This document shows, piece after piece, positions 27,348 through 29,549 of a stretch of DNA of 64,000 bases. This DNA is from Terriglobales bacterium. Lineage in GTDB: Bacteria > Acidobacteriota > Terriglobia > Terriglobales > Acidobacteriaceae. Position 1 is the first letter of the stretch. Every line of letters begins with the position of its first letter. Location: the NCBI GenBank assembly GCA_025934735.1, contig JAICWP010000005.1:62001-126000 (forward strand). Direction: 5' to 3'. Under the pieces are notes generated by a model that was not told the DNA's origin, searched no databases, and worked only from the letters and a program-made list of their open reading frames with translations. A program made the translations under genes and the position numbers.

Positions 27348-28247
27348 TCAAATTCTTTCCGCGGCCCTCAGCTTGGTGCTGCGCGAACGCGGGTTCAAAG
27401 CGATCTCCTCTGCCGTTGCTCCCACCGGCTTTTTTGTCAGCAGCCGGTAAACTCCGTTGCGGGCTCCTTCGCGCAGCGCGTCTTTCACGATGCGGTCCTC
27501 CAGCGAGTGGAAACTGATGATCACCAGCCTCCCGCCCGGCCTAAGCACATGGGGCGCCGCGCCTTCGCTCAGCAGCCCCCGCAAATCGTCCAGTTCGCGG
27601 TTTACGAATATTCGGATTGCCTGGAAAGTGCGCGTCGCCGGATGAATGCGCTCATGTTTCATTGACCGGGCCGCGGCCCATACCACCTCCTCCAATTGCT
27701 TGGTGGAGCGTATCGGCCGCGACCGGACAATGGCTCTGGCGATTCTCCGCGACCTCCTTTCCTCACCGAATTCGTAAATCACATCGGCGAGACTTTTCTC
27801 GTCGAGGCGATTTACCACTTGATCGGCGGTCAGCTCGGCTTGCGGGTCCATCCGCATATCGAGCGCTCCTTCCGCCTGAAAACTGAATCCCCGTGCCGCA
27901 TCGTCAAGCTGCAGGCTGCTCACGCCCAGGTCGGCCAGCAGGCCGTCGGCCGAAGCCGCCTCTACCCGCTGCCCAATCTCGGCGAACGAACCCTGCAGCA
28001 AGCTCACCTGCGGCCATTCCCCTTGCGGGGGCGGCTGCAAACGGCGCCGGGCTATCTCCAGCGCGGTGGGATCCTTATCGAGGCCAATCAAATGTCCCCG
28101 TGCGCCCAGGCGTTTTGCGATTTCGTAGCTGTGCCCGCCAAGGCCCACGGTGGCATCTATATAGGTCCCGCCACGCTGAACGGCCAAAAAGTCGATCGCT
28201 TCTTTTAAAAGAACCGAAACATGGCCAAGTTCCGCTTTGTCGACCAT
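27348..28247 (-). CDS. rsmH: 16S rRNA (cytosine1402-N4)-methyltransferase
   Basis: A 299-aa MraW/RsmH protein that methylates C1402 in the 16S rRNA P-site. The N-terminus HVSVLLKEAIDFLAVQRGG, the SAM motif YIDATVGLGGHSYEIAKRL, GLDKDPTALEIARRRL, DGLLADLGVSSLQLDDAARGFSF, MRMDPQ and the C-terminal LVIISFHSLEDRIVKDAL are all family hallmarks. It follows mraZ at 41 bp, as in most bacteria. Confidence 0.97.
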   Translation of the reverse strand: MVDKAELGHVSVLLKEAIDFLAVQRGGTYIDATVGLGGHSYEIAKRLGARGHLIGLDKDPTALEIARRRLQPPPQGEWPQVSLLQGSFAEIGQRVEAASADGLLADLGVSSLQLDDAARGFSFQAEGALDMRMDPQAELTADQVVNRLDEKSLADVIYEFGEERRSRRIARAIVRSRPIRSTKQLEEVVWAAARSMKHERIHPATRTFQAIRIFVNRELDDLRGLLSEGAAPHVLRPGGRLVIISFHSLEDRIVKDALREGARNGVYRLLTKKPVGATAEEIALNPRSRSTKLRAAERI

Positions 28248-28726: not shown

Positions 28727-28910
28727 GATTCCGGCCCCGGTTCGGGGTTTTTCTTACGTGGGCTGCTACTACGGCAGCCAGGGAGGAGGTCAAAAAGGTC
28801 GCTAATTCCTTGCTTTCACTTGCGTTAGGGCTGTTGTTTGGGCTGTCAGCCTTTAATTCCACTGGCGCTCCTGAAAACAGCAACTTTGCCCATGGCGACC
28901 GTACTGCTTG

Positions 28911-28964
28911 ACCACTTTCTACCACTTTCGACCACCATCCTACTATCAACTTCTTTGCTGTCAA
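28911..28964 (-). promoter_or_regulatory. dcw/mraZ promoter with three MraZ-box repeats
   Basis: On the minus strand a consensus -35 TTGACA (28964-28959) is followed after 16 bp by TAGGAT (28942-28937). Three head-to-tail 10-bp units (GTGGTCGAAA, GTGGTAGAAA, GTGGTCAAGC) occupy 28940-28911, covering the -10 box and expected start near 28930. The GTGG core at 10-bp pitch and the AAAGTGG reading match described MraZ sites in E. coli and Mycoplasma. Bound MraZ would block initiation. The leader to mraZ is then about 200 nt. Confidence 0.75.
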
Positions 28965-29549
28965 TAGGAATTTCGTAGGTCATTGGACGCGCTCCGATCG
29001 CAAAAATAAAAACTCCACAGCTTGTGCTTTTAGCGAAGCGCCCCCCAAGGACTTGCGGTTTACCATCCTGGTTCGTGAGGACTTGCGGCCTGAAATCCCG
29101 TTTTGAATCAGAGCAATGGCTGGAAAGACCTGTGGAAAAGTGCTTTTCTTGCTCGACCACCTCGCAATTCGCCCCGCCTCATGCCCACGGCAATGCAGTT
29201 CAAGCTGCTGAACCTAAAGCTCTCTAACGCTCACAACAGGGGTTTCGATCAGGTGCTGACGGTAATGGACGCGGGCCGTGAAATGGTGCCCTCGTTCCGC
29301 CTTGTTCCAGGGCTTCGCTTGCGAGGCAAGTGGCTGGCGCGCGCTACGGAGTGCGAAAGTGACCCTTTTTACCGATATAACGGACCAAAGCGGTTTAAGT
29401 CCTGCCACAAATTTGTTCCCCCAGCCACGGGATGGGCCGCGGGCACGCTGTTCGCGATTGTGGGCTATGAGGTGGGGTTCGGGGCGATCTGGGTGTATTT
29501 GGTGCGCCGGTCTCGCCCCTTCCCCAATGACTGTATGTTATTTCGGAAG
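28965..29549. other. Long gap upstream of the dcw promoter; no firm gene
   Basis: I find no well-supported gene. One plus-strand frame (29103-29573) has a short stretch, VPGLRLRGKWLARA (29304-29345), that resembles the core of SymE-type toxins, but the rest does not fit and no ribosome site is clear, so it may be a decayed remnant. The segment has a lower GC content near 28990-29020 than its surroundings. Confidence 0.4.

Follow-up and report, generated by a model that had tools for sequence, protein, structure and literature searches.

MraZ and the head of the dcw operon

In Escherichia coli K-12 (NC_000913), a sigma-70 promoter heads the dcw operon, and between it and mraZ lie three GTGG(G) units spaced at 10-bp pitch (TTGACA-18-TAAACT-7-GTGGGAAATT GTGGGGCAAA GTGGGAATAA), and E. 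coli MraZ has been reported to act as a repressor (Eraso 2014, as cited in PMC8475190). In Burkholderia cenocepacia, the fragment bound by MraZ (PmraBc) contains four 7-nt repeats separated by 3-nt spacers; as in E. coli, the repeats lie downstream of the -10 element and span the transcription start (PMC7761207). The MraZ boxes of Mollicutes are given as AAAGTG[T/G] (Fisunov 2016, as cited in PMC8475190); in M. genitalium these repeats are found at mraZ only, and loss of mraZ raises the transcripts of mraW, MG_223 and ftsZ by log2 values of 2.1-3.0 (PMC8475190). At the level of the leader, R. sphaeroides has UpsM and a weakly translated sORF in its dcw 5' UTR, the sORF being restricted to this species (PMC5089854). 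Regarding overlapping genes, laoB and pop of E. coli O157:H7 are described as long antisense examples (PMC5810103, PMC7103648), and off-frame stop codons have been found to be generally over-represented in prokaryotes (PMC2996987).

The locus studied here belongs to a 64,000-nt stretch of Terriglobales DNA, referred to in full as the window. Like E. coli K-12, it presents a sigma-70 promoter and then three GTGG units at 10-bp pitch before mraZ, although the -10 element is separated from box 1 by 1 bp instead of 7 bp and the core of the boxes is GTGGT/A instead of GTGGG. Compared with the four contiguous repeats of B. cenocepacia, the window has three repeats, with a possible fourth at a distance of two turns. 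The Mollicutes box AAAGTGG occurs twice in the window triplet, and both systems have a single site per genome, at mraZ; however, Mollicutes are wall-less hosts with a four-gene cluster, whereas the window carries a full dcw operon. The E. coli K-12 leader comprises tens of nucleotides without a known overlapping frame, while that of the window contains a candidate one. A long mraZ 5' region with an upstream frame is shared with R. sphaeroides, but the sORF of the latter is species-limited, whereas the window frame is kept in the genomes of about 100 related soil bacteria, with an mraZ overlap of 290-410 nt. Like laoB and pop, it is a long frame inside an annotated gene; unlike those antisense genes, it shares the strand of mraZ and lies in its -1 phase, is conserved across many genera and stands at an operon head. 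To judge from these sequence comparisons, the operator is ordinary and real, with an architecture already known from E. coli and Burkholderia. The new part is the overlapping frame, a candidate gene that had gone unnoticed and is unnamed in Pfam and NCBIfam.

Promoter and MraZ boxes of the window

On the minus strand, the order of elements is TTGACA, 16 bp, TAGGAT, one G and GTGGTCGAAA GTGGTAGAAA GTGGTCAAGC (Table 1), which bears out the sequence-only reading in its description of this promoter with three head-to-tail 10-bp units; the triplet sits 209 bp 5' of mraZ. The same reading had put the boxes on the -10 element as well as on the start site. The latter placement holds, as they span the transcription start predicted at ~28930, and the former has to be corrected, as they begin 1 bp past the -10. 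By itself the promoter match is not significant (1 seen vs 0.4 expected); it draws its significance from conservation in relatives. Exact matches to GTGGTNNAAAGTGGT occur only twice in the window, overlapping each other and both within the triplet. When up to 3 mismatches are allowed, GTGGNNNAAAGTGGNNNAAAGTGG is found at 3 places in the 4.9-Mb genome, with 0 mismatches solely here and with 2 and 3 mismatches at the two runner-up sites. The genome has a single mraZ, and residues D11, R15, D86 and R90 of the DxxGR motifs of MraZ are invariant among 14 sequences including that of E. coli. After rsmH, the downstream dcw genes include those for an ftsI-type penicillin-binding protein and a Mur ligase, and mraY.

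Two additional blocks were observed around the promoter. An ACCT..AA block is conserved immediately 5' of the -35 element (region 28936-28980, minus strand, and relatives), and a TTAGGCG block is conserved immediately 5' of the -10 in relatives and degenerate in the window. They might represent an UP-element, an extended -10 or the site of a second regulator.

Table 1. Features of the mraZ region, in window coordinates
Feature	Position	Strand	Remarks
-35 element TTGACA	28959..28964	-	TTGAC kept across most family members
-10 element TAGGAT	28937..28942	-	TAGGAT/TAAGAT kept immediately 5' of box 1
MraZ box 1 GTGGTCGAAA (putative)	28926..28935	-	exact GTGG in 54/55 family members
MraZ box 2 GTGGTAGAAA (putative)	28916..28925	-	exact GTGG in 51/55 family members
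MraZ box 3 GTGGTCAAGC (putative)	28906..28915	-	exact GTGG in 50/55 family members
Weak candidate fourth box ATGGG, offset 42	28889..28893	-	GTGG at offset 41 in relatives
Shine-Dalgarno AGGAG of overlapping frame	28868..28872	-	Shine-Dalgarno of at least 4 nt in 80/96 relatives
Candidate overlapping gene, GTG to TGA, 181 codons	28317..28862	-	-1 phase relative to mraZ
mraZ, 145 aa	28289..28726	-	PF02381, E=9e-19
rsmH (mraW), next dcw gene	27348..28247	-	control gene for stop-codon statistics

Conservation of the operator

The sequence-only reading had pointed to the mraZ upstream regions of other Acidobacteriota as the place to look for the triplet, and there it is found. Among 60 genomes of the GTDB family, 57 have mraZ, and alignment of their upstream regions on box 1 showed that 55 of the 57 score as triplets, with GTGG-like units repeated at 10-bp pitch; exact GTGG recurs at offsets 0, 10 and 20 with the frequencies listed in Table 1, against a background of 1.1%. 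The block formed by promoter and boxes is rigid across the family, yet it lies anywhere from 69 to 334 bp ahead of mraZ, a combination that points to a function at the promoter. Most mraZ genes across about 60 Acidobacteriota families also carry a triplet, which appears in two dialects, GTGGWnnAAA and [AT]TGGGAnAAA. The second dialect was seen upstream of mraZ at L110, L131, L090, L133, L128, L118 and other loci, in several families of the phylum. At a further locus (L059, genome G002), a divergent MraZ with 40% identity is preceded by TTGG/CGGG/CGGG/CGGG repeats at 10-bp pitch, which suggests a shifted box sequence.

Beyond the triplet, a fourth GTGG lies at offset 41, two helical turns past box 3, in 64/96 and 9/34 genomes of two groups within the family (background ~1%), and a contiguous fourth box at offset 30 occurs in 7/44 cases from other families. 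The GTGG at offset 72 was considered as an extra MraZ box and dropped, as it holds the GTG with which the overlapping frame begins, and a Shine-Dalgarno sequence precedes it.

The distribution of the pattern follows that of mraZ. At up to 2 mismatches it is present in 29 of the 30 mraZ-bearing genomes, nearly always at mraZ alone, and in none of 15 genomes without detectable mraZ, 13 of which reach at least 90% completeness with no more than 5% contamination, some mraZ-less genomes being incomplete assemblies. It was also observed that mraZ has apparently been lost independently in genera g93 (f19) and g124 (f30) and in G067, G129 and G146, where the operator pattern is absent too. The claim that an MraZ operator lies at the dcw promoter thus gains strong support from conservation, from co-occurrence with mraZ and from the E. 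coli layout, and the comparisons strongly support the interpretation of the repeats as a known kind of switch that would be phylum-wide. Autorepression by steric block, as postulated from the sequence, would be consistent with the position of the boxes and with the data from E. coli, M. genitalium and Burkholderia.

A second reading frame crossing the start of mraZ

The leader of about 200 nt that had been envisaged between promoter and mraZ is upheld in part: some 67 nt are plausibly untranslated, and the other 136 nt before mraZ belong to a conserved reading frame. Its Shine-Dalgarno sequence and GTG are located 72-73 bp past box 1, codons 1-45 are upstream of mraZ and the remainder lies within mraZ, in the -1 phase. 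In the leaders of relatives, a GTG or ATG near offset 72 follows GAGG or GGAG, and no stop is encountered until past the mraZ start. The start codons in 96 relatives are 72 GTG, 22 ATG and 2 TTG, and Shine-Dalgarno plus GTG at offset 71-73 are in phase in 60/64, with the distance to mraZ taking more than 20 different values. Indels in the overlapping frame of relatives are in-phase, and both its start codons and its end points differ among them. A structured RNA leader was considered and rejected, given that codons and in-phase indels account for the leader alignment and that the leader has no Rfam match. The frame is essentially limited to one Terriglobales clade, which comprises Sulfotelmatobacter, Angelobacter, SbA1 and many MAGs; in other families it is closed early in 13 of the 14 genes examined.

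Predicted product and proposed mechanism

At the protein level, the signs of selection concentrate upstream of mraZ, where pN/pS is 0.68 in the overlapping frame vs 0.83-0.90 in the other frames, an only moderately low value. The additional synonymous constraint on mraZ that a classical overlapping protein would lead one to expect was not found: no amino-acid constraint is seen within the overlap, and mraZ and rsmH are equally variable at their 4-fold sites. The tail of the frame stays open, and its sequence is not conserved beyond what MraZ imposes. Searches with the product gave no match in Pfam or NCBIfam and no convincing relative in the PDB. AlphaFold predicts one helix (residues 13-38) followed by disorder, with a mean pLDDT of 53 and otherwise low confidence. 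The somewhat favoured product is a small helical protein that ends in a disordered basic tail, because the helix-bearing part, upstream of mraZ, shows signs of protein-level selection.

Taken together, it is highly probable that the locus combines an MraZ operator with a clade-specific overlapping gene under its control. A sigma-70-type promoter would drive the dcw operon, and MraZ, encoded by the annotated first gene of the operon, would bind GTGG units that share one helix face and run from the second base past the -10 across the start site. Bound MraZ would thereby block RNA polymerase and keep its own operon down. When transcription proceeds, the message would present a leader of ~67 nt and then the Shine-Dalgarno sequence and GTG that open the 181-codon frame, which crosses the mraZ start and continues through mraZ in the -1 phase; the frame itself is conserved and is presumed to be translated. 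Its first 45 codons would carry one hydrophobic helix under weak purifying selection, and the tail would merely need to stay open. The frame is most likely a clade-specific overlapping gene that shares the control of the MraZ operator and would encode a small protein made of a helix and a disordered tail; the production of MraZ may also be throttled as ribosomes translate this frame across the mraZ start. It is likely, with somewhat less assurance than for the explanation as a whole, that in a large Terriglobales clade the first translated dcw gene is this unannotated overlapping gene, that mraZ is dual-coding in about 100 genomes and that MraZ controls both frames through its operator.

The main rival to a role as a helical protein is translational throttling of mraZ, and both can coexist. 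According to this possible, though rather unlikely, explanation, the upstream frame is a device of translational control in which ribosomes that start at GTG 28862 cross the mraZ start and limit MraZ, the sequence of the peptide being largely irrelevant. In its favour, the tail is open yet unconserved, nearly all relatives have a frame that extends over the mraZ start, and the weakly translated sORF in the R. sphaeroides dcw 5' UTR (PMC5089854) offers a parallel. However, mere occlusion of the mraZ start needs no open frame of 290 nt, and some purifying selection appears to act on the helix-forming part.

Avoidance of stop codons and the remaining alternatives

The maintenance of the frame was analysed in a clade set by at least 71% MraZ identity to the window protein alone, which avoids circularity (n=99, with n=33 outside). 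Over 290 nt or more of mraZ, the frame is free of stops in 92/99 genes of the clade vs 5/33 outside, where the counts cover related sequences and many of the sampled genomes are metagenome assemblies; the open fraction expected from rsmH and outside-clade rates is 12-13%. In addition, 19 of 19 further named genomes, previously unused, are open over the same minimal length. The frame has been lost in L035, L039, L144 and L165, and L202 has a stop at +146.

These figures bear on the explanation that only the operator is real and that codon bias or other constraints on the sequence keep the -1 phase open, with no functional product. Long off-frame ORFs are frequent in GC-rich genes, the overlapping tail lacks amino-acid conservation, and rsmH of the same genomes is likewise somewhat depleted of stops in the -1 phase when its codons are shuffled (171 observed vs 305 expected). 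Nevertheless, the depletion is far stronger in mraZ (19 vs 120), is weak in mraZ of family members outside the clade (76 vs 100) and is absent in the other phase (182 vs 189). It is accompanied by a conserved Shine-Dalgarno sequence and start codon, by in-phase indels and by the lower pN/pS upstream of mraZ, and it runs against the general over-representation of off-frame stops in prokaryotes (PMC2996987). We consider this explanation improbable.

The avoidance is manifested in individual codons as well. Third-position T before a stop-forming codon is found at 16/1763 sites (0.9%) of clade mraZ genes vs 27% elsewhere in the same genes; the corresponding values are 11% vs 25% for mraZ outside the clade and 10.6% vs 23.3% for rsmH of the clade genomes. 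Simple inheritance does not account for the avoidance, given that several avoided sites remain variable for C, G and A. The avoidance is strong as far as roughly mraZ codon 97 and weak beyond, and stops are frequent at codons 134/136; a favoured stop there is just suggestive because GCT and GAT are common at these positions anyway.

A +1 frameshift that carries ribosomes out of the upstream frame and into mraZ, yielding an N-terminally extended MraZ, would agree with a frame that runs stop-free into mraZ in nearly all relatives. It is very unlikely because the frame is open far past any useful fusion point: a shift near the mraZ start needs no open frame to codon 95, one near codon 95 would lose half of MraZ, and mraZ has its own start, preceded in many relatives by a G-rich stretch. 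Least probable of all is binding of the repeats by a regulator other than MraZ, since, even though MraZ is assigned to them by sequence comparison, they are near-exclusive to mraZ, absent from mraZ-less genomes and laid out like proven MraZ sites (PMC7761207, PMC8475190).

Implications for the dcw operon

Under the preferred reading of an operator coupled to an overlapping gene, the frame, if translated, would constitute an unusually widely conserved long same-strand bacterial overlap, and both the dcw leader and the synonymous variation of mraZ would need rereading. It would provide a direct route to the setting of MraZ dosage and to testing for a small helical protein hidden in the division operon. 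As regards the operator, MraZ autocontrol of wall and division genes, known in E. coli, Burkholderia and mycoplasmas, is very likely Acidobacteriota-wide, with about one MraZ site per genome. MraZ-like genes are present as two tandem copies or as three separate ones per genome in G117 (L139), G079 (L103) and G111 (L140, L141), some of them being located away from a typical dcw promoter.
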